Program-made: the position numbers and the translations under genes | Notes under the pieces: generated by a model | Databases searched by the model: none | The model's input: the letters and a program-made list of their open reading frames with translations, nothing else | What the model was told of the DNA's origin: nothing | Shown here: positions 1,419-22,198 of the stretch, piece after piece | Layout: each line of letters opens with the position of its first letter | Position numbering within the stretch: position 1 is the stretch's first letter | Origin: a virus | Direction: 5' to 3' (one strand) | Length of the DNA stretch: 36,358 nucleotides | Virus record (IMG/VR): IMGVR_UViG_3300020156_000064 | Location: 1 to 36,358 of that record

Positions 1419-1783
1419 CACGCGGCCACCTCCTGGGCCAGCTGGTCGACGAACCAGCGGCGGCTCGGGCGGTGCCGGGACCGCGGCACCTTCGGGGCGA
1501 GCAGGAGGTCGAAGACGACACCCCGGCCCAGGTGGCCGTTCGAGGCGACCAGGGGCAGCGCGCCGACCCAGCTGGCGACCTCGACGACCTTGTTCCACTC
1601 GGACGGGCCGATCAGCCCGGTGCGCTTGCACTGGATGAACAGCAGCTCGCCGGGCTTGAATGCGATCAGGTCGACCTTGCTGGAGCCCTTCGACCCGGCG
1701 GCCCTGACGACCTCGTAGCCGTTCTCGGTCAGCACGTCGCGCACCTTGTGCTCGAAGCGCGTCCCCTGCGCATAGCGGCTCAT
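1418..1783 (-). CDS. Holliday junction resolvase-like PD-(D/E)XK nuclease
   Basis: This 121-residue protein has the layout of archaeal-type Hjc resolvases: an early acidic residue (E11) in an FEHKV helix, a serine-rich loop RAAGSKGSSKVD (catalytic D38), and a QCK motif (Q51, K53) after a beta strand. Such enzymes cut four-way junctions or branched DNA with metal ions. In phages they resolve replication and recombination intermediates before packaging. Length and motif spacing fit. A more general restriction-endonuclease-like branched-DNA nuclease cannot be excluded. It is coupled to both neighbours by ATGA/TGATG overlaps. Confidence 0.75.
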   Translation of the reverse strand: MSRYAQGTRFEHKVRDVLTENGYEVVRAAGSKGSSKVDLIAFKPGELLFIQCKRTGLIGPSEWNKVVEVASWVGALPLVASNGHLGRGVVFDLLLAPKVPRSRHRPSRRWFVDQLAQEVAA

Positions 1784-7057: not shown

Positions 7058-7139
7058 GCTTGTGCTACTTTCAGCTGGTAGTTCATCGAGAGGCCGGGCG
7101 GCATGGGGATGTCGTGCCCGGCCTTCTTGCTGTCCGGGG

Positions 7140-7502
7140 TCAGCCCCGAAGGGCCGAGACCCCGAAGGTGCGCCGGGCCTGCTCGGCGGCTTCCCAGGTC
7201 GGGCAGCTCGGCGTCCAGGGGCCTGCGACCACGCAGAGCCAGAGGTCGGATTGGCGCGGGCAGCCGCACGGGGCGCGCTCGCCGGTCCACTCGGGCTGGC
7301 GCACAACGTCGGAGCGGTCGATCGGCTCCAGCAGGGCGTCCAGCTCGTCCCGGCGGAACCGGACCGACTGGGTGCCCGCCAGCTTGTGCCGGGTCAGCTT
7401 GCCCTCGCGGGCGTAGCGGTCGATGGTCGCCGCCGAGCACCCGAGGTGCGCGGCGGCCTGGGCCTTGGTCATCCAGGTGGGCGTCGTCATGCGGACGATC
7501 AT
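7140..7502 (-). CDS. excisionase/MerR-type helix-turn-helix protein (3' end possibly frameshifted)
   Basis: As written this gene encodes 120 residues. The N-terminal part is a helix-turn-helix of the excisionase type: MTKAQAAAHLGCSAATIDRY, then REGKLTRHKLAGT and a VRFRRDELDALL helix. A CGC and a further cysteine follow. It may act as a recombination directionality factor or a small regulator, although no integrase is in view. The start at 7502 has AAGGTG just upstream, and a tandem 10-bp repeat overlaps this region. The frame stops at 7140. A -1 shift at the G4 run on the minus strand (7144-7147) would add about 29 well-biased codons and end as ATGA on the primase start, the junction style used elsewhere in this operon. 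Confidence 0.8.
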   Translation of the reverse strand: MIVRMTTPTWMTKAQAAAHLGCSAATIDRYAREGKLTRHKLAGTQSVRFRRDELDALLEPIDRSDVVRQPEWTGERAPCGCPRQSDLWLCVVAGPWTPSCPTWEAAEQARRTFGVSALRG

Positions 7503-8245: not shown

Positions 8246-8419
8246 TTACTCGATGACCCAGCCGCGCGGCAGCTGGGGGACTGGGGATGCGCCCGGGAGC
8301 GCAGGCGGCACGTCGGCCGGGTAGACCCGGGCGAGCACGGCCACCGTTGCGCCGGCCGCGGCGACAGCCAGCAGCACGGCACCGGAGACGATCAGGGCCA
8401 GGTAGCGGCGCTCGCTCAT
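8246..8419 (-). CDS. small single-pass membrane protein
   Basis: This 57-residue protein has one hydrophobic helix at about residues 6-31, preceded by MSERR and followed by a Pro-rich tail. The positive N-terminus predicts an inside N-terminus and an outside or periplasm-side tail. It is coupled to the nuclease gene by an ATGA overlap (start 8419, nuclease stop 8416). Its function is unknown. Small membrane proteins in phage early operons often modify the host envelope or exclude other phages, but nothing here shows that. Confidence 0.65.
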   Translation of the reverse strand: MSERRYLALIVSGAVLLAVAAAGATVAVLARVYPADVPPALPGASPVPQLPRGWVIE

Positions 8420-9426
8420 GCGGCGGCCTCCAGCTCGGCCCGGCGGGCCGCGGCGGCCCGGGTCAGCTCGTCGGTCCAGAGGCCCTGGCCCTTCAGGTCG
8501 CGCCAGAGGCCCTTCAGGGACTCGACGTGCGGCGCGTTGCGGACCAGGTGCAGGTGCCGCCGGGTGTCCTCGGGCGACGGGGGCGGGCTGGTGAACGGGC
8601 GGCCCAGGGCCTTCGACGCCTTGCGCAGCTGGCGCACGCGGTGCGCGACCTGGGCGGCCTCCCAGCCGGTCACGAGGTCGACGAGGTAGAGGTCGCACCG
8701 GGCCGAGCCGACGGGCGCGTGCATGACCAGGCCGACCTCCAGGTCCAGGTCGTCCGGGAGCGGCACCAGGTCGCCCGCCTCGGAGAGCATGGCGTCGGCG
8801 TTGGCGTACTGGGCCAGCTGGCAGGCGATCTCCAGGAACCCGAAGTCGACCGACTGCTGCGACTTCAGGTCGGCCACGACGAGCCGCCCGTCGCGCAGGC
8901 GCACGAGCCGGTCGAAGGTGCCCGCGCTCTCGACGGTCGAGTTGATGACGATGCGCTCGATGTACTCGACGGGGCGCTCGATGCCGTTGCGGTCCATCGC
9001 GTCCAGGTACGCCTGGAGGTCGGCCAGCTCGGCCTCGGTGGCGAGGTGCTTCACCTCGTCGAGCCGCCCGGCGTCGGCCCACTCCGAGAGGGTGTGCGCC
9101 TCGGTGCCCGCCTTCGAGCCCCGGTTCGCGCCGGCCGCGTCGGCGGCCTGGTCGCAGAGCGCGTCCAGCCGGGCCTTCGCCTCCTTGGCCGAGCGCCAGT
9201 CGTCGCCCGCGGCCTCGATCTCGGCGGCCATGTCCGGGATCGCCCGGAGCAGCTGGGGCGCGACGGCCAGGCCCTCGGCGACCTTGCGGCGCTTCCAGTT
9301 CATGAGGCCGTTCAGGTCCTTCAGCGTCCCGACGACCGTCGTGGCCCGGGTGTACGCCTGGCCGTCGATCAGGTAGCGGCCGTAGTGGTCGCGCTTCGGC
9401 TCGGGCCGCAGGCTGGGGATCGGCAT
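8416..9426 (-). CDS. RecB/Cas4-like PD-(D/E)XK exonuclease
   Basis: This 336-residue protein has the RecB-family nuclease signature in order: GTEAH with H111, FDR with D172, DLK (D186, K188) and the QLAQY motif (Q203, Y207). These residues form the metal site of Cas4/RecB-type single-strand exonucleases. I see no Cas4-type cluster of four cysteines for an iron-sulphur centre. Phage members process DNA ends for recombination or degrade host DNA, and the SSB-like protein next to it fits recombination. The start at 9426 is set by the ATGA overlap with the upstream gene. The much longer upstream reading frame is a shadow of that gene. Confidence 0.82.
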   Translation of the reverse strand: MPIPSLRPEPKRDHYGRYLIDGQAYTRATTVVGTLKDLNGLMNWKRRKVAEGLAVAPQLLRAIPDMAAEIEAAGDDWRSAKEAKARLDALCDQAADAAGANRGSKAGTEAHTLSEWADAGRLDEVKHLATEAELADLQAYLDAMDRNGIERPVEYIERIVINSTVESAGTFDRLVRLRDGRLVVADLKSQQSVDFGFLEIACQLAQYANADAMLSEAGDLVPLPDDLDLEVGLVMHAPVGSARCDLYLVDLVTGWEAAQVAHRVRQLRKASKALGRPFTSPPPSPEDTRRHLHLVRNAPHVESLKGLWRDLKGQGLWTDELTRAAAARRAELEAAA

Positions 9427-9887
9427 CAGGCCACCGCCCCGGCGGGCTCGGACCAGTCGGCGTACGCCATGCAGCACCGGCCGCACGCGGCGTCCGGGGT
9501 CAGCTCGTCCGGCCAGGCGTGCTCGCAGGCCCGGGGGTCGACGGGGCCGACCTCGCGCAGCAGGTCCAGCAGGCACTCGGCCTGCTCGACGAGGATCGCG
9601 TGCTGGGCCTGGAACCGGCGGGCCTGGGCCGACCGGGTGCGCACGACCGCGGCCCCGCGCTTCCCGGCGGCCCGGAGCTTCTCGCGCTCCAGCTCGTCGA
9701 CGAGCTTCTCCAGCTCCTCGCCGCGGGCGTCCGGGAAGGCGATGCGGGCCTGGTTGCGCAGACGCTCGCGCTCGGCCGCCTGGGCGTTGCGCAGGATCGC
9801 GGCGCGGCGCTCGGGGTCGCTGGATGCCACAGTGCCGACCTCCATCGGGTCGATGTGACCCAGATAGAGGTCGGCACTGTTACGCAC
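9426..9887 (-). CDS. hypothetical helical protein, GTG start overlapping an upstream stop
   Basis: This protein is 153 residues from GTG 9887, or 139 from ATG 9845. It is highly charged and helical, with Glu/Arg-rich heptads over about residues 25-110 and a C-terminal CGRCC motif. I do not recognise it. The GTG overlaps the stop of a possible short upstream frame (GTGCGTAA), which favours that start through coupling. Neither start has a good ribosome-binding site. A perfect 14-bp inverted repeat at 9829-9842/9867-9880 spans both starts, so translation may be controlled by RNA structure. As an early gene of the leftward operon it could be regulatory. Confidence 0.6.
   Translation of the reverse strand: MRNSADLYLGHIDPMEVGTVASSDPERRAAILRNAQAAERERLRNQARIAFPDARGEELEKLVDELEREKLRAAGKRGAAVVRTRSAQARRFQAQHAILVEQAECLLDLLREVGPVDPRACEHAWPDELTPDAACGRCCMAYADWSEPAGAVA
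9829..9880 (-). promoter_or_regulatory. 14-bp inverted repeat across the start of the first left-operon gene
   Basis: ACAGTGCCGACCTC at 9829-9842 is perfectly complemented at 9867-9880, with 24 bases between. In the leftward mRNA the hairpin would enclose the ATG at 9845 and begin just after the GTG at 9887. It could therefore hide an initiation site, or as DNA it could be an operator. Confidence 0.55.
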
Positions 9888-10512: not shown

Positions 10513-12258
10513 ATGCCGCAGCTGACCACCGCCCCCGCCGACATCGCCCCCGCCAAGCTGACCCGGGTCGAGCCGGGGTTCTACCGGCACGAGGCGACCG
10601 GCATCGTGGCCTGGAAGGACGAGGCGATGGGCGACTGGCGCGTCTGCAACGACGAGAACTCGCTGGCCTTCGCCTACGCCCACACGCTCGCCGAGGCCCG
10701 CCGGGTCGTCGCCGCCGAGGTCGCCCGCCGGGACCGCGAGGCCCTGGAGGCCCGCGAGGCGTTCGCCGCCGACCACCCCGAGGCCGTCATCCAGCACGCC
10801 GAGCGCGCCAGCTGCTCGACCCCCGAGCCGGGCTGGTCGTCGCAGTGCCGCGCCATCGGGTGCCCGGGTCACTGGCGCACCGGGCTGGAGACCGAGGCCG
10901 AGGCCCGCGAGGCGTACCTGGCGCACCAGTGCGCGCCGGCCGTCGAGCTGACCGAGCAGCGCGTCGAGGTCAAGAAGCGCCGCACCCGGGTCGAGGTCGT
11001 CGACCTGCTGGCCTGGGCCTGCTTCACCGTCGAGGCCCGGCAGAAGGCCGACGCCCGGCACGAGCGCACCGAGTGGGCGACGCCGAACCTGGTCGAGCGC
11101 CTGGTCGCCGCGGGCTGGGTCCAGGGCTCGGCCGACTACCCCGAGCTGACCGAGGAGGGCTACCGGGTCTACCGGGCCGCCCGCCCGGTCGACCGCGACG
11201 ACGCCGCCGACTTCTCGGCGATCGAGCAGCTGGTCGACGGCTGGTTCGGCCGGGTCGTCGTCATCCCCTGCGGCGGTAAGAAGCTGGACGAGGCCGCCCC
11301 GGCGGGCGAGCTGTACGTCGGCAGCTACCACCGCGCCGCGCGCCGGGCCGCCGACGCCCTGGGCGGTCGGGTGCTGATCCTCTCGGCGCTTCACGGCCTG
11401 GTCGACCTCGACACCGTGCTGGAGCCGTACGACCTGCGCATGGGCCAGCCGGGCTCGGTCGCCCCGGAGCGCCTGGCCGAGCAGGCGGTCGCCCTGGGCG
11501 TCGCCGACAGCCTGAACGTGGCCGTGCTCGCAGGGAAGGCGTACGCCGACGCCGCCAGCTCGGTCTGGCCGCACGCGGTCCGGCCGCTGGACGGTACCCG
11601 CGGCATGGGCGAGCAGCTGGCCCGCCTGGCCGCCATCGCGGCCGAGGCCCCGTCGCCCTCGCAGAAGGCCATCGGCCAGGCGCAGATCGGGGCCTGGCTG
11701 GACCGGCACGACATCGCCATCCGGGAGATGACCGAGGCCGAGGCGACCCGGGTGGCCGCGGCCTACCACGCGGCCATCGAGGCCGACCGCGACGCCGCGC
11801 TGCTGGAAGACGCCGACCGGGCCGCCGGCCGCCTGCTCGACGAGGTGCTCGGGGCCGACAGCCCGGCCAGCCTGCGCGACAGCTTCGAGACCCTGGCCGC
11901 GGCCCGGGACGCCGAGACCGACGAGGAGCGCCGCAACCAGCTGGCCGCCGCGCTGGGCCTGGCCTACGACCGCATGGTCCTGGCCGAGCGCTTCGGGGTC
12001 GACACGACCGGCTGGAGCGCCGAGGCGATCAGCCAGCGGTTCGCCCAGGAGGTCGCCGCCGACAATCGCCGGGTCGTCCAGGAGGCCCAGGAGGCCGCCG
12101 ACGCCGAGCTGCGCCGGGTCGTCTTCGAGCTGATCGAGACCGGCGGGGCGTGCCAGTACGGGGCGATGTGCGGCCGACCGGCGGCCAAGGCGCTGACGCA
12201 CCCGGTGCTCGGCCTGCTGGCCGCCTGCGAGGGCTGCGCCCGCATCGCGTCCAGGTGA
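10513..12258 (+). CDS. DUF6884-like protein with zinc-knuckle ends
   Basis: This 581-residue protein is the first of the rightward segment. The middle (about residues 247-375) has the pattern IPCGGKK (C253-K257), then ELYVGSYHRA, LSALHGLVD and LEPYDLRMG. I associate this pattern with DUF6884-type domains of actinobacteria and their phages. The order (Cys-Lys motif, SALHGL, PYD) also recalls the core domain of archaeosine synthase ArcS, a link that is only my inference. A cysteine cluster lies near residues 100-120 (SSQCRAIGCPGHW), and the C-terminus has a CxxxxxC...CxxC zinc-ribbon pattern. The rest is Ala/Glu/Arg-rich helix. A biochemical role is not established. The ATG at 10513 has AAGGAG 7 bases upstream. 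Confidence 0.75.
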   Translation: MPQLTTAPADIAPAKLTRVEPGFYRHEATGIVAWKDEAMGDWRVCNDENSLAFAYAHTLAEARRVVAAEVARRDREALEAREAFAADHPEAVIQHAERASCSTPEPGWSSQCRAIGCPGHWRTGLETEAEAREAYLAHQCAPAVELTEQRVEVKKRRTRVEVVDLLAWACFTVEARQKADARHERTEWATPNLVERLVAAGWVQGSADYPELTEEGYRVYRAARPVDRDDAADFSAIEQLVDGWFGRVVVIPCGGKKLDEAAPAGELYVGSYHRAARRAADALGGRVLILSALHGLVDLDTVLEPYDLRMGQPGSVAPERLAEQAVALGVADSLNVAVLAGKAYADAASSVWPHAVRPLDGTRGMGEQLARLAAIAAEAPSPSQKAIGQAQIGAWLDRHDIAIREMTEAEATRVAAAYHAAIEADRDAALLEDADRAAGRLLDEVLGADSPASLRDSFETLAAARDAETDEERRNQLAAALGLAYDRMVLAERFGVDTTGWSAEAISQRFAQEVAADNRRVVQEAQEAADAELRRVVFELIETGGACQYGAMCGRPAAKALTHPVLGLLAACEGCARIASR

Positions 12259-12279
12259 GACCCCCGGCGGGGTTGATCG

Positions 12280-12323
12280 TTGCCCGGTCAGCCCCGCCCC
12301 TGATACCGTCCCCGTTGTAAGAC
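12280..12323 (+). promoter_or_regulatory. rightward promoter P2
   Basis: TTGCCC (12280-12285) and an extended -10 TGATACCGT (12301-12309) are spaced 18 bases apart. They are followed by CGTTGTAAGAC, identical to the start block of P1 and P3. The promoter lies in the gap after the DUF6884-like gene and would drive the small gene at 12353. Confidence 0.6.
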
Positions 12324-12352
12324 GTTCGTAGACCCCGAGGAGACACGCCGAG

Positions 12353-12547
12353 ATGGCCGACACGACGACCTACCAGACCTTCAGGACCAGCGCGCCGACG
12401 AACTCGGCCGTGCGCGTCCTGACCGCCGAGATGGCCGCCGCGCTCGGTGGCGTCCGGCTGACCTACGACCAGGTGATCGCCGCGTGCGTGGCGGTCGCCA
12501 GCCAGCACCGCGACGAGCTGACCGCGGCCCTGCGCCCGGCCAGCTGA
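12353..12547 (+). CDS. small hypothetical protein
   Basis: This 64-residue soluble protein has a Thr-rich N-terminus and two predicted helices (VLTAEMAAALGG and YDQVIAACVAVASQHRDELTAAL). No domain is recognised. It has its own promoter (P2) and is followed at once by a hairpin, so it may be expressed separately from, or at a higher level than, the genes around it. That is a pattern seen for small regulators. The ribosome-binding site GAGGAG lies somewhat far (about 12 bases) from the ATG. Confidence 0.6.
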   Translation: MADTTTYQTFRTSAPTNSAVRVLTAEMAAALGGVRLTYDQVIAACVAVASQHRDELTAALRPAS

Positions 12548-12552
12548 CGAAG

Positions 12553-12583
12553 GAGGCCCCGGGCGCGCACCGCCCAGGGCCTC
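12553..12583 (+). terminator. hairpin after the small P2 gene
   Basis: A 13-bp stem (GAGGCCCCGGGCG/CGCCCAGGGCCTC) with one mismatch and a 5-base loop starts 6 bases after the stop at 12547. It is probably a terminator or attenuator that limits read-through into 12615. No T-tract is present. Confidence 0.6.
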
Positions 12584-12614
12584 GAAGCCGACACGGACTC
12601 AGGAGGTCCAGGTC

Positions 12615-12884
12615 ATGCGAGATCACGTTACCAATCAGTTCCCGGTCGAGCAGCTCCAGGTCGAGCACGCGACGGCCAAGCAGTCGCCCATCCCGGGCCT
12701 GGTCCGGCTCCAGCTGGACGTGACCCCCGATGAGGCCCACCGCATCGCCTACGCCTGCGACGGACGCCTGGCGGGATTCGCCGGGCTCCTCGAAATCTCG
12801 GCGCTCTGGGCGCGCTACGGCGTCAGCCCGGACCAGCCCGCAGGCATCCTGCCCCAGCGCCGCGCCAGCGACCCGGGGGAGTAG
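12615..12884 (+). CDS. small hypothetical protein
   Basis: This 89-residue soluble protein has no recognised domain. An AGGAGGT ribosome-binding site lies 6 bases before ATG 12615. The sequence suggests a beta segment (GLVRLQLDVTPDEAHRIAY) followed by a helix ending in ALWARYG and a disordered tail. It sits 3 bases before the next gene's GTG and is probably co-transcribed with the membrane-protein genes. Confidence 0.6.
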   Translation: MRDHVTNQFPVEQLQVEHATAKQSPIPGLVRLQLDVTPDEAHRIAYACDGRLAGFAGLLEISALWARYGVSPDQPAGILPQRRASDPGE

Positions 12885-12887
12885 GCC

Positions 12888-13679
12888 GTGACTCCGCTCT
12901 GCCTGCGGTGCGGCGCGCGCCGCCCGAACCCCGTCTGTAGCTGCTCGAAGGAGAAGACCATGAAGCGCACCACGCGCTCGGCCGTGAAGGCCATCTGCAT
13001 CGGCGGGGCCGTCGGCCTCGTGTTCAACCTGCTGTCGGCCTTCAGCGCCGGGGCCTGGTCGGTCGTCTGGGGCCTGATCGGCATCGCTGGCGGGGTCGTC
13101 TTCGCCATCGGCCTGCTCTACCTGGTCGCCTCGCTGGGCCGCCGGGGCGGTCGGGCCTCGAAGCCGAAGCGCCGGCCGAGCTTCCTGCGCCGGGTCGCCG
13201 ATGCCGGATACCGGCCCTGGCTGGTCGCTGGCGCGTCGGCCTTCTACGGATACCTGGCCTGGCTCCAGCTCGTCGAGGCCATGACCGCGGTCATCGCGCA
13301 GGACCCGAACCGTGCCGCCGCCCAGCTGATCTGGGGCGTCGTCCTGCTCTGGCTCGTGAAGGTCTTCGCCGGGCTGACCATCGACGCCGCCAGCTCGAAC
13401 CGGAAGGCCGCCCGGGACCGGCGGATCGACGCTCGCGCCGAGGAGCTGGCCCGCGGGCCGATGGAGGCCAGCGAGCTGCGCGCCCTGGCCGACGCCGCCA
13501 CCGACGCCCGCGACTGGGAGGAGGCCGCCGCGCTGCTGGAGGCCGCGGGCCGGGTCATGCGCCGGGACGCCGAGCGTCGGCACGACGAGGCGATCGCCTT
13601 CCTGCGGGAGACGAACGAGCGCGCCCGCGCTGACCTCGACCGCATCCGGCTGGGCCGTCTGAACGAGGGGGCGTACTGA
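12888..13679 (+). CDS. polytopic membrane protein with optional N-terminal zinc knuckle
   Basis: From GTG 12888 the product has 263 residues. From ATG 12961, in the same frame, it has 239. Both starts have good ribosome-binding sites (GGGGGAG and GAAGGAG). The longer form adds CLRCG...CSCS, a likely zinc knuckle. The body has about four membrane helices (two near the N-terminus of the short form, two more near its residues 82-100 and 118-140). A basic segment lies between the helix pairs, and the cytoplasmic C-terminal 90 residues form a helical, highly charged region. It resembles in general form the Spd membrane proteins that accompany TraB on Streptomyces plasmids, a structural analogy rather than an identified homology. 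Its stop overlaps the next start (TGATG). Confidence 0.7.
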   Translation: MTPLCLRCGARRPNPVCSCSKEKTMKRTTRSAVKAICIGGAVGLVFNLLSAFSAGAWSVVWGLIGIAGGVVFAIGLLYLVASLGRRGGRASKPKRRPSFLRRVADAGYRPWLVAGASAFYGYLAWLQLVEAMTAVIAQDPNRAAAQLIWGVVLLWLVKVFAGLTIDAASSNRKAARDRRIDARAEELARGPMEASELRALADAATDARDWEEAAALLEAAGRVMRRDAERRHDEAIAFLRETNERARADLDRIRLGRLNEGAY

Positions 13680-14725
13680 TGGAGACCCTGCTGAAGCTGG
13701 CCCAGGATCACCTGGCCCTCGTGATCGGCGGGGCGGTCGCCGCCCTCCTGGTCGTCGTGCTCGTCACCCGGGCGGTCGCCAAGGCCGCCAGGAAGGCCGA
13801 CGAGCCCCTGGCGAACGTCGCCATGCTGCTCGGCCTGGGCTGGTCGTCCGAGGCCGTCTGGGAGCTGTCGGAGGGCCTGCCGACCGGCCTGCGCATCGCC
13901 ATCTTCTCCGTGCTGGAGGTCATCCTCCTGGTCTCGATGGTGCGCACGAAGCGCGCTGTGGAGGAGCTGGGTCGCGCCGGCCGCGCGGGCCGGACCGTCT
14001 GGGTCGTCGCCTCGGTCATGGCTGTGGTCGGCATCTTCGCCGCCGACGGGCTCGGCGAGGGCGCTCTGCGCGCCGCGGTGCCCCTGCTGCTGACCCTCAC
14101 CTGGTGGCAGGGCGTCGTCCCGGAGGGCCTGAAGCGCGCCGACGGGGCGGTCTCCTGGCGGTGGACCCCGCGGCGGCTCCTGCTCGCCCTGGGGGCCATC
14201 GAGCCGGGCGAGCGCGACATCGAGACGGTCAACCGGGAGCGCCTGACCCAGCAGCTGACGCGGCTGGAGTTTGGCCGCCAGCACGGCCTCGGCTGGCTGG
14301 CCCCGGTGCGCAAGGCGCGGCTGATGCGCCTGTCGCTCCACGCCGACGACGACATGATCGCCGAGGTGCGTCAGCGGGTGGCGCGCGCCAGCTGGTTCAC
14401 CGTGACGCAGCTGCGTCAGGTCGGTGGCGCACCGCTGACGCAGGCCGATGACGCACCTGCGACGCAGGGCCTCGTCGTGCCGACGCGGCGCGTCACCCGG
14501 GAGCTGACGCGGCCTCTGACCAGCAGTGACGCGGCTGGCGCAGACCCCGCGGCGCGCGCCGCCAGCCTGGTCGTGACGCAGGGCATGGCGGTGCGCGAGG
14601 CCGCCCGGGAGACCGGGGCCGCCGAGGCGACGGTGCGTCGCCGCGTCAAGGAGATGACGCAGCCTGACGCGACGCAGGCGACGCAGAAGACGAACGGGCA
14701 CCCGGTCCTGGCCGCCGGCCAGTGA
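13679..14725 (+). CDS. membrane protein with C-terminal helix-turn-helix
   Basis: This 348-residue protein has membrane helices at about residues 12-32, 70-87, 104-122 and 130-143, and a basic cytoplasmic domain with WTPRRLLLALGAI. The C-terminus contains a helix-turn-helix-like segment VREAARETGAAEATVRRRVKE. A membrane anchor plus a DNA-binding end suits a protein that ties plasmid or phage DNA to the envelope during transfer. That is inference. Its last 150 codons carry an extraordinary density of TGACGCAG-like repeats, giving repeated Thr-Gln dipeptides (VTQ, LTQ, ATQ, MTQ). The repeats continue past the stop, so the DNA itself is likely selected. The start is fixed by the TGATG overlap. 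Confidence 0.72.
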   Translation: METLLKLAQDHLALVIGGAVAALLVVVLVTRAVAKAARKADEPLANVAMLLGLGWSSEAVWELSEGLPTGLRIAIFSVLEVILLVSMVRTKRAVEELGRAGRAGRTVWVVASVMAVVGIFAADGLGEGALRAAVPLLLTLTWWQGVVPEGLKRADGAVSWRWTPRRLLLALGAIEPGERDIETVNRERLTQQLTRLEFGRQHGLGWLAPVRKARLMRLSLHADDDMIAEVRQRVARASWFTVTQLRQVGGAPLTQADDAPATQGLVVPTRRVTRELTRPLTSSDAAGADPAARAASLVVTQGMAVREAARETGAAEATVRRRVKEMTQPDATQATQKTNGHPVLAAGQ

Positions 14726-14775
14726 CGCACCGCCCGACGCAGTAGACGAAGGAGACCCAGGAGACCATGACGCAA
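14256..14775. repeat. cluster of about 18 [T/C]GACGC[A/G] octamer repeats, candidate transfer or replication site
   Basis: TGACGCAG or a one-to-two-base variant occurs on the plus strand at 14403, 14436, 14449, 14460, 14481, 14505, 14527, 14574, 14655, 14665, 14670, 14679, 14723, 14735 and 14768, with an outlier at 14256. Reverse-strand copies are at 14367, 14411, 14488 and 14641. TGACGCAGCTGCGTCA at 14403-14418 is a perfect 16-bp palindrome. The cluster spans the 3' end of one gene, the intergenic gap and the first codons of the next. Confidence 0.7.
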
Positions 14776-15153
14776 CGACGACGCCGCACGCCGCGCGACC
14801 CCCGGTTCGCCGACTACCCGGATGACTTCCTGGCCTGTCGCGTCGACCGGCACGACCTCCCCGGGATCATGACCCCCGACGAGGCCCAGCGGTGGCGCTA
14901 CCCGGACGCCGACGTGCTGGCGACCCGGCGCAAGTGCCGACGGTGCGGAGCCGTCGAGGTGCGCCTGACGAACGAGCTGGACGGGACGCTCTACCGGCCG
15001 ACCCGGTACGACTACCCGGAGGGCTACCTGCTCCGGGCTCCCGAGGGGGTCGAGGGGCCGACGCCCCGGCCGGTCGCCCGGCTGGAGCAGGTGCGGCGCT
15101 TCCTGGACCGCAACCCGACGCCCCAGCGGCGCTTCCTTGCGCCGGGCCAGTAG
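14767..15153 (+). CDS. hypothetical basic protein with zinc-finger-like cysteines
   Basis: This 128-residue protein has an Arg-rich N-terminus (MTQRRRRTPRD), a CRVDRHD motif near residue 24 and a CRRCG knuckle near 58. Together they could form a Cys/His zinc site. Tyr/Arg-rich and Pro-rich segments follow (RPTRYDYPEGY). Similar small zinc-knuckle proteins are common in actinobacterial mobile elements, but I cannot name a family. Two ribosome-binding-like sequences precede ATG 14767. Its first codons belong to the TGACGCA repeat cluster, and promoter P3 overlaps its 3' end. Confidence 0.65.
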   Translation: MTQRRRRTPRDPRFADYPDDFLACRVDRHDLPGIMTPDEAQRWRYPDADVLATRRKCRRCGAVEVRLTNELDGTLYRPTRYDYPEGYLLRAPEGVEGPTPRPVARLEQVRRFLDRNPTPQRRFLAPGQ

Positions 15154-15189
15154 GTCAGGTAGCGTCTTCGTTGTAAGACCCATGTCTTA
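15137..15189 (+). promoter_or_regulatory. rightward promoter P3 with palindromic start region
   Basis: TTGCGC (15137-15142), a 17-base spacer and TAGCGT (15160-15165) are followed by GTCTTCGTTGTAAGAC (15164-15179), identical over 16 bases to P1. A further dyad TAAGAC-ccat-GTCTTA spans 15174-15189. It sits at the 3' end of the previous gene and would drive the membrane-protein and translocase genes. Confidence 0.7.
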
Positions 15190-15198
15190 GAAACAGCC

Positions 15199-15241
15199 CC
15201 GGGCGGGGCGCACAAGCCGCCACAGCCAGCGCCCCGCCCGG
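15199..15241 (+). terminator. leader hairpin between P3 and the membrane-protein genes
   Basis: A perfect 13-bp stem (CCGGGCGGGGCGC/GCGCCCCGCCCGG) with a 17-base loop lies about 30 bases after the P3 start and before the AAGGAG of the next gene. It could be the terminator of the preceding gene, but its position after P3 also suits an attenuator. Confidence 0.6.
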
Positions 15242-15266
15242 TCTCTCCAGGAAGGAGACCCCCATC

Positions 15267-15482
15267 ATGGCCCAGCTGGTCCCGTACGTCCGGCCCGCCG
15301 CGCCGAGTCGCCTGGTCAGCCCCGCTGACCTGGCCGACCTGGAGCCGGTCGAGCGCAGCATCATCGAGGGCGAGTACGTCGAGGCGTACCCGGGCGTGAA
15401 CCCCGTCTGGCACATCCTGGTCATCGTCGCGCTTCAGGCCGCCGGCCTGGTCGCCATCGCCGTCTGGGCGGTGGCCCGATGA
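15267..15482 (+). CDS. small membrane protein
   Basis: This 71-residue protein has one C-terminal membrane helix (about residues 48-69, HILVIVALQAAGLVAIAVWAV) and a soluble N-terminal half (SPADLADLEPVERSIIEGEYVE). It is the first gene after P3 with AAGGAGA 9 bases before the ATG. It overlaps the next gene by ATGA. Its function is unknown. Its place at the head of a run of membrane proteins ending in a DNA translocase suggests a part in the same membrane complex. Confidence 0.65.
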   Translation: MAQLVPYVRPAAPSRLVSPADLADLEPVERSIIEGEYVEAYPGVNPVWHILVIVALQAAGLVAIAVWAVAR

Positions 15483-15712
15483 TCGGCAACGTCGTCGCCC
15501 GCCTGTCGTTCGCCGCCGCCGCGGCGCTGCTGGGCCTGTCGCTCCAGCTCGCCTGGACCGGCTGGTTCGACAGCCCCGAGGGCCGCCCGGTCGTCAAGGT
15601 CGTGACCGACCACGCGCACTACGAATCGGACAAGGCCGAGGATGGCTCGCGCTGGGTCACCTGCTTCTCGGCCCAGCGTTGCACCGAGCTGAACGGCAGG
15701 CCGCGCCAGTGA
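15479..15712 (+). CDS. small exported or membrane-anchored protein
   Basis: This 77-residue protein has an N-terminal hydrophobic segment (residues 4-26) that could be a signal peptide or anchor. An extracytoplasmic domain follows, with two cysteines (TCFSAQRC, near residues 61-68) that could form a disulphide. Start and stop both overlap neighbours (ATGA, then GTGA), so it is tightly coupled within the operon. I do not recognise a family. It is the only clearly export-prone protein in this segment and might face the cell wall or a partner cell. Confidence 0.6.
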   Translation: MIGNVVARLSFAAAAALLGLSLQLAWTGWFDSPEGRPVVKVVTDHAHYESDKAEDGSRWVTCFSAQRCTELNGRPRQ

Positions 15713-16188
15713 ACACGACTACGGGCGGTAACTCTCAAGTCTCTACTGGAGACCTGGAGCAGACCCCCCTGGAGCGCGAAACGGCCCCTGAACTCTCTAC
15801 TCGGGGCGAAAGTCTCCAGCGGTCTCTAGTCACTCTCCGTGCCCGGCTCCTGGGGGCGCTCGCGCGCTCCCGGGGCTACTGGATGCCGCCGCGGCTCCTG
15901 ACCGACCGGCCGGAATCGGTCGCCGAGCTGGCCGCGTACGCGCGTCGCGGGGGCTACGCGGCCCCGCACGGCGTCGGCCGTCGCCTCGGCCTCGCCTGGT
16001 TCTACGTCGTCGCTCTGCCGACGACCGTCGTCTGCCGATACGTGGCCTGGTTCGCCGAGCGCCCCGGGCGCTGGCTGGCCGCGGCCTTCATCTGGCAGAC
16101 CGTCATCCGGTCGGAGCCCGGCATCTGGGCCGTCGACCACATCGTCCGTCCGGTCCTGGCCGCCGCGGCCTGGGCCTTCCTTCCCTGA
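15709..16188 (+). CDS. membrane protein with unusual N-terminal coding sequence
   Basis: This protein is 159 residues from GTG 15709, which overlaps the preceding stop. Residues 1-43 are Ser/Thr/Glu-rich and encoded with rarely used codons (TCT, ACT, CAA, CTA, AGT), in sharp contrast to the neighbours. This stretch carries the ACTCTC/GTCTC motif cluster. The rest is basic, with hydrophobic helices near 93-115 and 143-158. Function is unknown. Membrane location and operon context link it to the translocase group. Confidence 0.65.
   Translation: MNTTTGGNSQVSTGDLEQTPLERETAPELSTRGESLQRSLVTLRARLLGALARSRGYWMPPRLLTDRPESVAELAAYARRGGYAAPHGVGRRLGLAWFYVVALPTTVVCRYVAWFAERPGRWLAAAFIWQTVIRSEPGIWAVDHIVRPVLAAAAWAFLP
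15731..15837. repeat. cluster of ACTCTC and GTCTC motifs
   Basis: ACTCTC occurs at 15731, 15792 and 15832. GTCTC occurs at 15739, 15812 and 15822, the first in a dyad GTCTC-tactg-GAGAC. The stretch is visibly poorer in GC than its surroundings. It may be a protein-binding array overlapping the coding sequence. Confidence 0.45.
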
Positions 16189-16200
16189 GAGGAGCCCGGC

Positions 16201-16668
16201 ATGGGTAGGGGATCAGGTTCTGGCCTGCGGGCCATGCATCAGAAGTCGGTCAAGGGGCTGGCCTGGGCCAGCTTCGTCATCGCGCTGGCGTGCGGGGCGC
16301 TGCTGCCCGGCACGTTCGTCGGCGAATGGGTCGTGACGGTCCTGGGCTGGCTGCCCTGGGGCGCGACCATCCCGGTCATCGTGCTCATCGTCGGCTGGGT
16401 CGGTGTCTTCCTGGACACCTACCTGGACCTGGAGCCGAACCAGCTGGCGGTCTGGGGTGCGCTGCTGCTGCCCTCGGTCGCCGGGGCGGTCTCGGGCGGC
16501 ATGGCCGACTGGACCCAGGACATCGCCGACACCGTGCTGGAGGCCGTCGACCAGTCGCTGTTCGCCGCCGCGCCCGAGGGCCTCGGCTCGACCGCGCTGG
16601 CCCTGGCGACCTCGGTGGCCGCGGTGCTCATGGCCCAGCGCGTCGTCAAGAAGGGTCGGCGAGCCTGA
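16201..16668 (+). CDS. polytopic membrane protein
   Basis: This 155-residue protein has about four hydrophobic helices (near 20-40, 48-70, 83-101 and 130-148) and basic ends (KSVKG near the start, VVKKGRRA at the end). An amphipathic stretch, DWTQDIADTVLEAVDQSLF, lies before the last helix. No enzyme motif is seen. Size and four-helix layout are comparable to SpdB2-type pore or channel proteins encoded next to TraB in Streptomyces plasmids, an analogy only. A GAGGAG site lies 8 bases before ATG 16201. Its stop overlaps the next start (TGATG). Confidence 0.68.
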   Translation: MGRGSGSGLRAMHQKSVKGLAWASFVIALACGALLPGTFVGEWVVTVLGWLPWGATIPVIVLIVGWVGVFLDTYLDLEPNQLAVWGALLLPSVAGAVSGGMADWTQDIADTVLEAVDQSLFAAAPEGLGSTALALATSVAAVLMAQRVVKKGRRA

Positions 16669-17447
16669 TGGACGTGTTCAGCTTCCTGCTCGTCGTCTAC
16701 ATGCTGAAGGTGCTGGCCGAAGACACCTGGCACGGCGTCAAGGGCACGCCGAACCCCCGGCACGCCGCCCGGGAGCGCCGCCGGAAGACCAGGGCGCGCT
16801 CGCGCACCTGGGGCGCGCTGACCACCTACTGGGGCGACCTGGTGGAAGACGCCGCGGCAGAGGCCACCGAGCACCGCCGCCGGAAGGCCGAGCGCAAGCG
16901 CCGGGAGCGCGCCGAGCGCGAGGCCGCCGAGCTGGCCGACCCGGCCGCCGCGCCGGCCGAACCCGAGACGCCCGGCCCCGCCGAGGGGGAGGAGCCGGTC
17001 GACCTGGACCTCGACGACCCGAAGGAGGAGACGCCCACCGAACCCATCCCGACCGAGCCGCCGGGCTCCACTTCCCCGGAGCCCGGCCCGACCCCCGACA
17101 ACGTGATCCCTTTCCCGGCCCCCAGGGCCACCGCACCGAAGGAGCAGGACATGGCTACCACTGAAGTCACCGGCCTCGACCCGGCCATCGAGTACGCCAA
17201 GGCGCTCGCGTCCTACGCCGCCGAGCACGCCCAGGCGGGAAACGAGGGCTACATCGGCTTCCTGACCCAGAGCAAGGTCCAGGGCTCGGCGCTCTCCTCG
17301 GCGCACGAGATGCAGGAGGCGTTCGCCGCCGCAGCCGCCGCGGCCGAGCGGCACAAGGGCGAGCTGGAGAAGCAGAAGACCGTCCAGGAGGCGTACAACA
17401 CGAACCCGGACGCTGGCGACAAGGCGTTCCAGCAGAACGGCCAGTGA
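16668..17447 (+). CDS. membrane-anchored coiled-coil protein with a possible internal start for a helical C-terminal domain
   Basis: This 259-residue protein has a short N-terminal hydrophobic helix (residues 3-15), then a very basic Arg/Lys/Glu coiled coil (about 40-90), a long acidic Pro-rich linker (about 90-155) and a C-terminal helical domain of about 98 residues. That last domain begins at an in-frame ATG (17151) with a perfect AAGGAG site 7 bases upstream, so a separate 98-residue protein may also be made. The domain is Ala/Gln/Glu-rich and reads as two helices. The gene directly precedes the translocase and ends before a strong hairpin. A bridging or coupling role is plausible but not shown. 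Confidence 0.7.
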   Translation: MDVFSFLLVVYMLKVLAEDTWHGVKGTPNPRHAARERRRKTRARSRTWGALTTYWGDLVEDAAAEATEHRRRKAERKRRERAEREAAELADPAAAPAEPETPGPAEGEEPVDLDLDDPKEETPTEPIPTEPPGSTSPEPGPTPDNVIPFPAPRATAPKEQDMATTEVTGLDPAIEYAKALASYAAEHAQAGNEGYIGFLTQSKVQGSALSSAHEMQEAFAAAAAAAERHKGELEKQKTVQEAYNTNPDAGDKAFQQNGQ

Positions 17448-17453
17448 ACCGAA

Positions 17454-17490
17454 GCGAGGCCCGGGGCGGACATGGAGCCCCGGGCCTCGC
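17454..17490 (+). terminator. hairpin upstream of the translocase gene
   Basis: A perfect 14-bp stem (GCGAGGCCCGGGGC/GCCCCGGGCCTCGC) with a 9-base loop lies between the coiled-coil protein gene and the translocase. It probably reduces transcription into the translocase gene. No separate promoter for the translocase is obvious. Confidence 0.6.
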
Positions 17491-17526
17491 GCCCCATCGT
17501 CGCAGAGCACACCAGGAGGGTGCGAG

Positions 17527-19557
17527 ATGAAGACGCCGACCGTCGAGAAGCCGACCGCCGCAGCTGCGCCGGCCGCGCCCGCGTTCGTCGGGCCGCCGGT
17601 CGACGGCCTGGAGCAGACCGTGAAGCCCTGGGCCGCGATGGGCGCGCTGTTCGTCGCCGCAGGGGCCGCCCGGGTGGCGATCGTGGCGACCGGCCACGAC
17701 GCCGAGATCGCCTGGGCGACGGCCTCGGCCGCCTTCGTCATCGCGGTGGTCGCCGCCACCGTGTCGAAGCGGCGCTTCATGTCGAAGCGCCTGCGCTCCC
17801 GGTTCACCGCGGCGCTCTACCTCGGGGCCACCTGGGTCGCCGGGGTGGCGCACCTCGGCATGAGCTGGGGCGCGGTCGCCGTGCTGACGATCGTCGGGGC
17901 GTCGCTGTCGCTGGCCTTCTGGTCGGAGCACCCGGTCGGCGTCGCCGACGAGGGCGTGCGCCTGGTCGACGACCCCGACATCTACGTCGAGCGCTGGGCG
18001 CGCAACCTGGGGGCCAAGGGCAAGAGCCTGGTCGGCTCGCGCCTGCTCCCGAACCCCGAGCGCATCCGGGCCGGGTACCGCTACACGCTGGAGCTGGTGC
18101 CGGGCTCGCAGACCATCGCGGGCGTCATCACGCAGCAGGAGCAGCTGCGCGGCGGCCTGCGCCTGAAGCGCGGCCAGGAGGTCATCGTCGAGGAGCACCC
18201 GGACGAGCCCGCCCCGACGGCCCTCGTGACCATCGTCGAGCAGTCGCCGGTCAAGCAGTCGCGCCCCTGGCCCGGTGCCGCGGCGGCCTTCGACGCCAGC
18301 GCGGGCTCGGTCAACCTGGGGCCGTTCGTCGATGACGAGGGCACCGCGCGCTGGTCGGTCTACCAGAAGAACGGCATCTTCGGCGGCTTCATGCAGGGTG
18401 ACCCGGGCTCGGGTAAGAGCCGCATGTTCGAGTCGATCGCCATGTCGGTCGCGTCCAGCGAGACGCACCCGACGGTCGTCTGGTTCGCCTGCGGCCAGGG
18501 GGGCGCGTCGTCGCCCATGCTCGTCGAGCACGCCGACTGGTCGGCGACGACGATCGAGGATTTCCACGAGATGCTGACCGCCGCGTGCAACCTGTACGTC
18601 TGGCAGTCGAAGCAGAACAGGCACCTCGGGCTCCCGGGCTTCACCCCGATGGACTCCCGGCCGGGCCTGGTCATCTTCGTCGACGAGCTTCACGGCCTGG
18701 TCGACCCGAACGAGCACGCCATCCTCGGCCCTGCGAACGCGGCCCTGATGCTGCGCATCGCCCGGGAGGCGCGCAAGGCCGGGGTGGCGATCATCGCGGC
18801 CGACCAGTCGCCGACGCTCGACGCCTTCGGCGGCTCGGGCAACGGGATGCAGACCCTGCGCTCGGCCCTGCTGAACGGCAACGGCGTGCTGCTCCGCTCG
18901 GAGAACAACAACGCCAAGCAGGTGTTCAAGGTCGACATCGACCCCCGTGCGTTCCCGAAGCTGCCCGGCTACGCCTGGCTGGCCCGGCCCGCCGAGGGAG
19001 AGCGGTCGGCCCCGTTCCGGGGCTACTTCGTGAACGACGAGCAGATCGCCGTCGAGCCGAAGCGCTTCGCCTGGCGGTCGCTGACGCCGAAGCAGACGAA
19101 CCTGACCGGCTCGGATGCCTACGCCCGGCGGCACGAGGTCGCCGCCGAGCGCGCCGAGGCGCTCGCCCTGGAGCTGGAGCTGGCCGAGGCCGGGATGCTC
19201 GGCACGCTGGAGCAGCTGGGCGCGCAGATGGACGCCGCGGCGCTGGCCCGCACCGAGGCCGCCAAGGCCGACGTGCAGCTCGACTTCGCCGACGGAATCC
19301 CGCCGGTCCGGCCCGTGCCGCGCTTCTGGCTGACCGCCGGGGCGCGCGCCGAGGCCCAGCCCATGACGCCCGCCGAGACGAAGGTGCTCCAGGCGCTCGC
19401 CCGGGGCGGCTCGATGAAGGTCGGGGCGATCGCCGAGGCCGCGGGCATCAGCCCGCAGGGGGCCGACGGGGCGCTGAAGCGCCTGGCGGCCCGGGGCATG
19501 GTGCGCCAGCCCCAGAAGTACGGACCGTACGAACTGACCGCCGCGCACGCGGCCTGA
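17527..19557 (+). CDS. TraB/FtsK-like DNA translocase with four TM helices and C-terminal winged helix
   Basis: This 676-residue protein begins with an Ala/Pro-rich N-terminus and four membrane helices (about 35-55, 61-80, 94-110 and 113-132). A linker domain of about 150 residues leads to a P-loop ATPase with Walker A GDPGSGKS (291-298, K297) and Walker B LVIFVDELHG (D386, E387). It ends in a winged helix (about 613-670) like the FtsK gamma domain. TraB proteins of Streptomyces conjugative plasmids share this plan: a membrane-anchored hexameric pump moves double-stranded DNA and its winged helix reads short repeats. A chromosome-segregation FtsK would be longer, with the same order. HerA-type or packaging ATPases lack this winged-helix end. 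The start has AGGAGGG 7 bases upstream. All key residues are intact. Confidence 0.85.
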   Translation: MKTPTVEKPTAAAAPAAPAFVGPPVDGLEQTVKPWAAMGALFVAAGAARVAIVATGHDAEIAWATASAAFVIAVVAATVSKRRFMSKRLRSRFTAALYLGATWVAGVAHLGMSWGAVAVLTIVGASLSLAFWSEHPVGVADEGVRLVDDPDIYVERWARNLGAKGKSLVGSRLLPNPERIRAGYRYTLELVPGSQTIAGVITQQEQLRGGLRLKRGQEVIVEEHPDEPAPTALVTIVEQSPVKQSRPWPGAAAAFDASAGSVNLGPFVDDEGTARWSVYQKNGIFGGFMQGDPGSGKSRMFESIAMSVASSETHPTVVWFACGQGGASSPMLVEHADWSATTIEDFHEMLTAACNLYVWQSKQNRHLGLPGFTPMDSRPGLVIFVDELHGLVDPNEHAILGPANAALMLRIAREARKAGVAIIAADQSPTLDAFGGSGNGMQTLRSALLNGNGVLLRSENNNAKQVFKVDIDPRAFPKLPGYAWLARPAEGERSAPFRGYFVNDEQIAVEPKRFAWRSLTPKQTNLTGSDAYARRHEVAAERAEALALELELAEAGMLGTLEQLGAQMDAAALARTEAAKADVQLDFADGIPPVRPVPRFWLTAGARAEAQPMTPAETKVLQALARGGSMKVGAIAEAAGISPQGADGALKRLAARGMVRQPQKYGPYELTAAHAA

Positions 19558-19570
19558 CGAGGAGGCACCG

Positions 19571-19837
19571 ATGGCATTCGAGCCCGACCCCGATCACGTC
19601 CCCTGGCCGCACGAGGAGGGCCTGCGCACCTACCTCCAGGCCAAGCTGGACCAGGTGGCCGCGGCCATCGACGCCAAGGATGCGGACGGGGTGGTCGACG
19701 TACTGGAAGACCTCGGCCGCGACGGCTACCCGGAGCTGGCCCAGGCCGTGCTCCAGGCGCTCGTCGCCGCCGGGCTCCAGCGCTACTACCTCCTGGCGAT
19801 CCTGGGCCTTCAGCAGCCGAAGGGGGACCAGCCGTGA
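19571..19837 (+). CDS. small acidic helical protein
   Basis: This 88-residue acidic protein is predicted helical (LRTYLQAKLDQVAAAIDAKD, then helices around VVDVLEDLG and PELAQAVLQALVAAGLQRYYLL). It has no membrane helix and no recognised domain. A GAGGAGG site lies 5 bases before ATG 19571, and its stop overlaps the next start (GTGA). Directly after the translocase, it could be a small partner of it. Confidence 0.65.
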   Translation: MAFEPDPDHVPWPHEEGLRTYLQAKLDQVAAAIDAKDADGVVDVLEDLGRDGYPELAQAVLQALVAAGLQRYYLLAILGLQQPKGDQP

Positions 19838-19974
19838 GGCGTCGCCGCCGGCCGAGCTGGGCCGCCTGGATGTGCCGCTGGCTCGGGCACAAGCCCTACG
19901 TCTCCGTGATGACCATCGCGGGCGTCGAGCTGCAATCGTGGCCCGCGTGCGAGAGGTGCCGCGTGCTCCTCTGA
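19834..19974 (+). CDS. tiny basic protein with cysteine/histidine knuckle
   Basis: This 46-residue protein starts at GTG 19834, overlapping the previous stop, with AGGGGG about 6 bases upstream. It begins RRRRR and holds a CRWLGH motif and a CERC knuckle near its end, so it may bind zinc and nucleic acid. It is the last gene before the bidirectional terminator. Small size lowers confidence, but the coupled start and the stop close to the terminator support it. Confidence 0.55.
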   Translation: MRRRRRPSWAAWMCRWLGHKPYVSVMTIAGVELQSWPACERCRVLL

Positions 19975-19992: not shown

Positions 19993-20033
19993 GAAGCGCC
20001 CCCCGCCTCCAGGACGGAGACGGGGGGCGCTTC
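19993..20033. terminator. bidirectional terminator between convergent operons
   Basis: A perfect 13-bp stem (GAAGCGCCCCCCG/CGGGGGGCGCTTC) with an inner CTCC/GGAG pairing, and flanking ACGAC/GTCGT, separates the rightward segment from the leftward lysis genes. It serves both strands. Confidence 0.85.
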
Positions 20034-21265: not shown

Positions 21266-22198
21266 CTACGCCGCCATCCGTGCGGCCAGCAGCTCGACGA
21301 CGCGCTCGGCCTGGTCCTGGGGGAGCGCGGCGACGATGGCCTCGGCGATGCGCTCGGGGTCGACGCCCGTCAGCACGCCCTGGATGACCGCGGCAGCGAT
21401 CGCGCCCTCGTCGGTCTGGTCCTTCGAGGCGATCCCCTGGGCGACCGCGAGGGCCTTGGCCGAGTAGTCCCGGGCCGCCACCGCCGCGGCGTAGGTGTTC
21501 TGGAGGTAGGAGGCCGGAGCCCAGTGCGTGTTCACCGGCTGGCCGTTCGGCAGCGTCCCGGGCTTCGGCGCACCGGGGGCCGGGATGATGTTGTCGGTGT
21601 TCCAGACTTCCTTGACGGTCGGCAACTCGTCGCCTCCTGCGATCAGGGCCGAGACGCGCTTGCGCTCGGCCGCCATGTCGACCCCGAACGGGTCGGACTT
21701 CGTGCTGGTCTCGCCCGCGGGGCGTCCCGCGTACGGCTGGTGTTCGTAGTGGCCCGCCAGCCGCCGGGCGGGATCGGCGTTGAACCGGCGCATGATGGCC
21801 GCCGTCGCGCGCCGCGCGGCGTCGAGCTGGACCGCCGGCCACGCCTCGCCCCGGTTGTCGTTCGCCATCTCGATGCCGAGCAGCTGGGTGTTCCCGAGGC
21901 CCTTGTTCGGCCCGGCCCAGCCGACCTTGTTGTGATTGCAGCGCCCGGCCGCGCAGACGTAGACCGTGCCGTCGCGCCAGATCATCAGCTGGGCGATCGG
22001 AGGCGGGGCGCTCGTCGACCCGTTCAGGATCACGTTCACCTCGCCCTGGGCGGTCGCCGTCCGGGAGCCCGCGGTGGCGTGCCAGGTGACGCCCTCGGGG
22101 TCGAACTCGGCCGAGCCCCGGGTCGCCCAGCCGTCGACCGCGACGACGCGCAGCCCGGCCTTCTTGAGCTCGTCGACCAGCCAGGTCAGTCGGGCCAT
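21266..22198 (-). CDS. endolysin, N-acetylmuramoyl-L-alanine amidase (Amidase_2 type)
   Basis: This 310-residue protein has an N-terminal amidase/PGRP-like domain (about residues 1-190). The likely zinc ligands are H40 (TWHATAG), H150 (LAGHYEH) and D169 in the KSDP motif, with E110 in GIEMAND near the active site. It cleaves the bond between muramic acid and the stem peptide at the end of infection. A Pro-rich linker (GAPKPGTLPNG) leads to a C-terminal helical region (about 240-310) that could bind the wall, although no classical SH3 or LysM motif is seen. An AGGAG lies 6 bases before ATG 22198. It heads the lysis cluster, with three membrane proteins downstream. Confidence 0.88.
   Translation of the reverse strand: MARLTWLVDELKKAGLRVVAVDGWATRGSAEFDPEGVTWHATAGSRTATAQGEVNVILNGSTSAPPPIAQLMIWRDGTVYVCAAGRCNHNKVGWAGPNKGLGNTQLLGIEMANDNRGEAWPAVQLDAARRATAAIMRRFNADPARRLAGHYEHQPYAGRPAGETSTKSDPFGVDMAAERKRVSALIAGGDELPTVKEVWNTDNIIPAPGAPKPGTLPNGQPVNTHWAPASYLQNTYAAAVAARDYSAKALAVAQGIASKDQTDEGAIAAAVIQGVLTGVDPERIAEAIVAALPQDQAERVVELLAARMAA

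Follow-up and report, generated by a model that had tools for sequence, protein, structure and literature searches.

The window analysed here is a linear virus record from IMG/VR (IMGVR_UViG_3300020156_000064) of 36,358 bases, a genome fragment in which the portal gene is cut at the contig end. Between its minus-strand replication and lysis genes lies a plus-strand block of genes at 12888-19837, and we think it probable that this block is a TraB-type double-stranded DNA transfer cassette of an actinobacterial tailed phage, itself probably temperate. The initial annotation had compared the block to a tra/spd operon. That likeness is borne out by TraB homology, by the fold of the ATPase, by the gene order on plasmids and by the co-conserved membrane genes, and it supports the idea, drawn from sequence, that the block works like a TraB transfer operon. 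The central protein is the ATPase.

17527-19557, plus strand: predicted TraB/FtsK-type membrane DNA translocase of 676 amino acids (aa), assigned from the NF041214 profile, the TcpA/FtsK fold and tblastn matches to plasmids

The plan of Streptomyces TraB attributed to this protein, consisting of membrane helices, an FtsK-type motor and a winged helix, is present. Its best full-length profile match is NCBIfam NF041214, plasmid_TraB (E 2.3e-12), with residues 30-673 aligned colinearly to positions 8-635 of the 639 in the profile. The P-loop ATPase reported with K297 and D386 has a Walker A motif, GDPGSGKSR, that contains K297; among 11 homologues K297 and E387 are invariant and D386 is nearly so. 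An AlphaFold2 model built from the 11-sequence alignment has a mean predicted local distance difference test score (pLDDT) of 71, and in it the motor and the winged helix are confidently modelled and the membrane helices are not. The four transmembrane (TM) helices predicted earlier do appear in the model at 26-134, with low confidence (pLDDT 50-60), and three of them exceed the hydropathy threshold. The winged helix lies at 615-670 (helices at 615-655, a strand at 668-670; pLDDT about 78-86), and the only Pfam match above cut-off, MarR_2 at 613-661 (31.1 versus 27 bits), falls in the same C-terminal region. The winged helix matches MarR_2 rather than FtsK_gamma, and with no Pfam FtsK_SpoIIIE match either the protein does not classify as a chromosomal FtsK/SpoIIIE.

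A comparison with packaging, HerA and defense ATPases leads to the same family. While plasmid TraB is the best full-length profile, the best folds are those of TcpA and FtsK: Foldseek ranks TcpA of plasmid pCW3 first (1e-14), followed by FtsK (3e-13) and HerA (1e-4), and the VIA-align Z scores are about 27 for TcpA, 24 for FtsK, 16-19 for HerA and 15 for TrwB. PHROGs contributes a weak FtsK/SpoIIIE match. A HerA- or MADS-type ATPase serving in defense or counter-defense would be compatible with two PADLOC matches (mad8 at 3.7e-8 and HerA at 0.05), which are short stretches around the Walker B strand. However, the TraB match is stronger and covers the full length, the HerA folds score well below TcpA and FtsK, no nuclease or Sir2 partner was found in the block and the membrane genes are co-conserved with the ATPase, so that we regard a defense function as very improbable.

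The other genes of the block are as follows.

12888-13679, plus strand: 263-aa membrane protein with three predicted TM helices and a Cys-rich N-terminus, no clear family
13679-14725, plus strand: 348-aa membrane protein with three predicted TM helices and a C-terminal helix-turn-helix (HTH); its gene carries the octamer array described below
14767-15153, plus strand: 128-aa protein with one CxxC, in the position of a zinc-protein gene of some plasmids (phrog_4480, 5e-6, unknown function)
15267-15482, plus strand: 71-aa protein with a single predicted TM helix
15479-15712, plus strand: 77-aa protein with one hydrophobic segment
15679-16188, plus strand: 169-aa protein with a conserved P-P / Y-A-R / R-P-x-R core, common to plasmids and phages
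16201-16668, plus strand: 155-aa membrane protein with three predicted TM helices
16668-17447, plus strand: 259-aa coiled-coil protein with an N-terminal hydrophobic stretch and a conserved C-terminal QEAYxxxPDAGDKxF motif
17454-17490: perfect 14-bp inverted repeat between the coiled-coil and ATPase genes, a possible attenuator or operator
19571-19837, plus strand: 88-aa protein 3' of the ATPase, final gene of the block

The initial annotation described these genes as small membrane proteins, a membrane protein with an HTH, a coiled-coil anchor and zinc knuckles, and this description stands in part. TM segments are predicted in the 263-aa (three), 348-aa (three), 71-aa (one), 77-aa (one) and 155-aa (three) proteins, and the 348-aa protein does combine them with a C-terminal HTH. 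The 169-aa and coiled-coil proteins are less clear cases: in neither does a helix pass the TM threshold, although the latter begins with a hydrophobic stretch. The putative zinc knuckles amount to CxxC-type clusters in the 263-aa and 128-aa proteins, with no family match. A second perfect inverted repeat, of 13 bp, lies between the 128-aa and 71-aa genes (15199-15241).

The same cassette is present on actinobacterial plasmids. By tblastn the ATPase matches 65 of them (best E about 5e-23; less than 30% identity among the matches listed), and on plasmids of Amycolatopsis, Saccharothrix, Pseudonocardia and Nocardiopsis a similar order recurs: small genes come first, then a DUF2637-type gene (350-430 aa) and further small genes, and two genes of about 180 and about 145 aa precede a long coiled-coil gene, which is followed by the ATPase. 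The core that the window has in common with the plasmids, in the same order, is the 169-aa, 155-aa, coiled-coil and ATPase genes. Position-matched homologs were found on Amycolatopsis, Saccharothrix and Pseudonocardia plasmids: the 169-aa protein matches a Pseudonocardia plasmid protein at 1e-7 and the coiled-coil protein an Amycolatopsis one at 5e-14, and the plasmid similarities are 7e-4 for the 155-aa protein and 3e-31 to 2e-10 for the ATPase. The 348-aa gene occupies the position of the DUF2637 gene of its relatives, and with the plasmid equivalents it has only position and architecture in common. Its sequence similarity is with a phage relative, where the TM region is homologous to a 483-aa protein of L022 (29% over 148 aa, E 6e-10). 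Its HTH gives weak profile matches, and DUF2637 passes the cut-off in the equivalents from L011, L012 and L042. The plasmid cassettes sit in regions without annotated phage genes. In two cases, L006 (Amycolatopsis plasmid pAS20800, 10014-10298, E 4e-4, 2 kb past the main match) and the similar L027 (13146-13784), there is a second ATPase-like match, weak in L006.

Three alignment-based scans of viral contigs recovered 13 contigs beside the window, twelve of them clearly related; single-protein queries over viral and genome contigs found none. The core is present, with variations, at L010-L013, L022, L023 and L042-L047, and most of these contigs have tail, portal, terminase or capsid genes. As the initial annotation would lead one to expect, the ATPase is kept together with membrane genes: the 169-aa and/or coiled-coil genes lie 5' of it in 12 of the 12 viral relatives and the 155-aa gene is there in many. 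L013 begins within the cassette, and only a remnant of the first gene of the 169-aa/coiled-coil pair was called. In most of the relatives the next genes, on the opposite strand, are for tail, capsid, portal or lysis proteins. The fullest example is L022, on the 44-kb contig G005, with terminase, portal, capsid, tape measure and tyrosine integrase genes; contig G157 is laid out alike, with terminase-, portal- and capsid-like genes, and also encodes a serine recombinase. In a tree the window ATPase groups with the phage ATPases plus one Dactylosporangium contig (support 96/94). Among 50,697 GenBank phages neither the ATPase nor its L022 homolog has a protein match at E 1e-5, and a DNA-level search with the block had no match either.

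Recombinases are encoded by five of about 11 of these contigs (tyrosine type in G005, G161 and G162; serine type in G157 and G006), and ParA has no match in the window or in 10 viral relatives. Therefore, the plasmid prophage that had been proposed is no likelier than a temperate phage that integrates. Genes for GntR and/or NUDIX proteins lie beside the cassette in L022 (633-2155) and L047 (5041-5796 and 14283-14921), which have both types, and in L042 (1-651, NUDIX). The GntR genes are comparable to KorSA of pSAM2. Conjugal immunity in pSAM2 involves its NUDIX protein, Pif (PMC3218068), and neighbors of these types speak for a transfer cassette.

The winged helix of TraB recognizes 8-bp clt repeats (PMC12857230, PMC3583192), and the window has a cluster of octamers that, judged by its sequence, resembles such sites.

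14244-14775: clt-like array of 19 TGACGCAG sites with at most one mismatch (16 forward, 3 reverse), spanning the stop codon of the 348-aa gene into the next gene

All five exact copies of TGACGCAG in the window are inside the membrane-HTH gene (13679-14725), and 19 of the 63 near-matches in the window fall in these 0.54 kb, a density 29-fold over that of the rest. The tightest cluster has 11 sites (at most one mismatch) in 284 bp, 14403-14686, and its tile is the top tile of the window. In 300 synonymous shuffles the mean was 6.7 sites and the maximum 9, so none reached the observed 11, and neither did any of 300 codon permutations. The Poisson tail of 2e-21 is post hoc, because the octamer was picked from the same data. 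The exact forward copies are in one frame, and the near-matches occur in two frames and on both strands. A CGCCGAGG cluster in the ATPase gene, second-best in the window, also beats its shuffles but was set aside because the word is frequent, with 364 near-matches across the window.

The equivalent gene has arrays of other octamers in five relatives. L022 has 10 exact copies of CGGACCAG, five in each of two frames; L011 and L012 have 10 and 20 exact copies of TGAACACC, mostly in one frame, with 1 and 3 in another; in L047 the gene lies 3' of the ATPase and has 22 exact copies of CGTCCCAC, which use three frames and flank the membrane domain; and L042 has a CGCGCGGC-like array in a gene that passes the DUF2637 cut-off. 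A sixth array, in L044, rests on a Pro-Glu-rich stretch and was counted as weak. No convincing array was found in the equivalent gene of L023, L010, PhiNon1, L045 or L046. Because the octamers are often read in more than one frame, selection appears to act on the DNA. In a survey of 122 genes from six contigs (40 shuffles per gene), 12 genes beat all of their shuffles and six of these are the membrane-HTH genes, which have the top z in the window, L022, L042, L047 and L011 and the second in L012; the six other genes imply a false-positive rate near 5%. The arrays are not a general DUF2637 trait, since of 28 further DUF2637 genes, taken from actinobacterial genomes, a single one outscored every shuffle, and its word was GC-simple. 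A blind search for three-copy octamer patterns in viral contigs lacked specificity: it returned hundreds of loci, and almost all of these are peptide repeats in a single frame. Of 357 arrays, the only ones to adjoin the cassette were the known arrays of L012 and L022, and 4 of the 40 densest used more than one frame.

Octamer arrays also occur outside the membrane-HTH gene. In L024 (Dactylosporangium sucinum) CCGTTCCG arrays of 17 and 14 near-copies lie at 17135-17418 and 18032-18325, where no gene is called; they adjoin parA, follow a similar cassette at a distance of about 5 kb and are candidates for iterons, parS or clt. In L007 (Pseudonocardia plasmid pLS2-1) GGTCCGG arrays at 2272-2527 and 3635-3933, probably iterons, flank an unannotated Rep-like HTH frame. 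These two cases would fit an array that has no part in transfer and serves instead as an autoregulatory operator or as an iteron-bearing replication origin. However, the arrays of the phage relatives are inside the membrane-HTH gene of the cassette and not beside a replication gene, and we consider an origin or operator quite unlikely.

Several observations weigh against a TraB-type transfer cassette. The NF041214 score is 46 bits, compared with an equivalog cut-off of 800 and a score of 848 for pCQ4 TraB, which makes the ATPase a member of a TraB-like subfamily and not a TraB equivalog. Pfam FtsK_SpoIIIE has no match in the window ATPase, and where relatives do match it they score 14.8-17.8 bits against a cut-off of 24. 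The window, which is incomplete and where Rep was not searched for systematically, yielded no integrase, Rep or Par gene and no tyrosine or serine recombinase; thus, this contig itself gives no sign of lysogeny. The plasmid homologs L004-L008 have no convincing array in the equivalent gene. Finally, the ATPases of L022 and L042 are 63% identical and have the same recognition helix, RQVHNLLGDL, and yet their octamers differ, as do their membrane-HTH proteins. This pair weakly contradicts reading of the array by the ATPase.

The opposite pattern is displayed by L011 and L012, which have the octamer TGAACACC in common; the HTH helices of their membrane proteins are nearly identical, and their ATPase helices are more different. 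Together the two pairs, the only informative ones, favor the membrane-HTH protein as the reader of the array. One explanation, which we consider somewhat unlikely, is prophage maintenance: the membrane-HTH protein would bind the array in its own gene and tether phage DNA to the membrane as a single-protein partition system, and the TraB-like pump would move prophage DNA across septa within one mycelium and not between mates. Such a system would be similar to StbA of plasmid R388 or Par of pSK1. Besides the octamer tracking the membrane-HTH protein and not the ATPase helix, the lack of a ParA match in 11 contigs is in its favor. Conversely, the pairs are only two, the gene belongs to a cassette that plasmids have too and TraB-type pumps are known for transfer (PMC12857230).

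For a transfer cassette we infer the following sequence of events. The plus-strand operon would be expressed during lysogeny and the ATPase would form a membrane-anchored hexamer. Either the ATPase or the membrane-HTH protein would engage phage DNA at the TGACGCAG array (14.24-14.78 kb), and unprocessed double-stranded phage DNA would be pumped into a neighboring hypha or compartment, with the small membrane and coiled-coil proteins assisting in the role of Spd proteins. A more specific version, which we offer tentatively and do not expect to hold in full, is that the gene is self-addressed: the membrane-HTH protein would read the array that its own coding sequence contains in more than one frame, so that one gene would be both the cis-acting address and the membrane receptor handing phage DNA to the TraB-like pump, in a lineage of tailed phages spreading by mycelial contact as well as by virions.

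The genes around the block agree with the slot described for it, on the opposite strand between lysis and replication genes; the plus-strand run as a whole covers 10513-19837.

2301-4253, minus strand: PolA-type polymerase, replication side of the block
4250-7306, minus strand: primase/helicase, replication side
8416-9576, minus strand: exonuclease, replication side
21266-22198, minus strand: endolysin, lysis side
27102-28937: tape measure candidate, from similarity to phage tape-measure genes

The lysis side also has tail, major capsid, protease and portal genes on the minus strand; no terminase was found in this fragment. Location in a phage genome next to lysis genes might suggest a role in DNA packaging, in ejection or as a membrane pore during infection. 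We give this little credence, as contig G005 encodes a separate terminase and portal, G157 has genes like these in the same layout, the strand is opposite to that of the late genes and the same cassette is on plasmids. Three further features were noted: the run begins with a 581-aa protein (10513-12258, plus strand) with DUF6884 (8e-22) and similarity to DpdC (4e-6) and PDC-M57A defense models; a small Hjc/Mrr-type nuclease (1418-1783, minus strand; Hjc 3.5e-10) is perhaps a Holliday junction resolvase; and an 18-bp inverted repeat (94%; 19993-20033), terminator-like, lies between the cassette end and the converging lysis genes.

Several known systems resemble the window. TraB of Streptomyces conjugative plasmids (pSVH1, pIJ101 and pJV1 types) has the same N-terminal membrane helices, FtsK-type motor and winged helix, with 8-bp repeats nearby and small membrane neighbors. 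The window differs in its low identity (about 25% to pCQ4 TraB), in the coiled-coil and DUF2637-type membrane-HTH genes alongside and in having the array inside a coding gene, whereas theirs is beside tra. Elements with tailed-phage genes and a transfer block are already known, namely PhiNon1 of Nonomuraea and pZL12 and pCQ4 of Streptomyces. PhiNon1 has a DUF2637 gene, small genes, the ATPase and then lysis genes on the other strand, and pCQ4 has traA, traB, terminase and portal within one record. However, the window ATPase is distant from those of PhiNon1 (23%) and pCQ4 (25%), no octamer array was found in the equivalent gene of these two, and all three elements are established replicons, while the window is a contig fragment known from its sequence. 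A CCCCCACC cluster after the pCQ4 membrane-HTH gene is C-rich low complexity and was dropped. Actinomycete integrative and conjugative elements (AICEs) such as pSAM2 have TraB-type transfer, a GntR regulator and NUDIX gene like some of the phage relatives and, as in some relatives, an integrase; unlike them, the window encodes virion proteins and replication proteins of the PolA phage type. TcpA of Clostridium perfringens pCW3, a conjugation coupling protein and the best fold match (Z 27), is 14-15% identical, and pCW3 has a different kind of conjugation system. The FtsK-like translocases of large Streptomyces phages (Wofford, Jay2Jay and others) belong to the same motor superfamily and give only a 150-residue match (E 0.02-0.7).

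What appears to be new is the phage lineage absent from the GenBank phages, its TraB-like subfamily with a co-conserved cassette and, as far as a partial check of the DUF2637 literature goes, the octamer arrays inside the membrane-HTH gene. No clt motif has been described for the model AICE pSAM2 (PMC9513070), and octamers within a membrane-HTH gene would be an unexpected place for a cis-acting transfer site. The combination of transfer-type genes and address-like repeats suggests that this soil-actinomycete virus may have a second way to spread, directly between cells and with no particles made. Uncultivated tailed phages of actinobacteria repeatedly carry a plasmid-type transfer cassette that GenBank phages lack, and this would imply that plaque isolation may hide viruses with two routes of spread.

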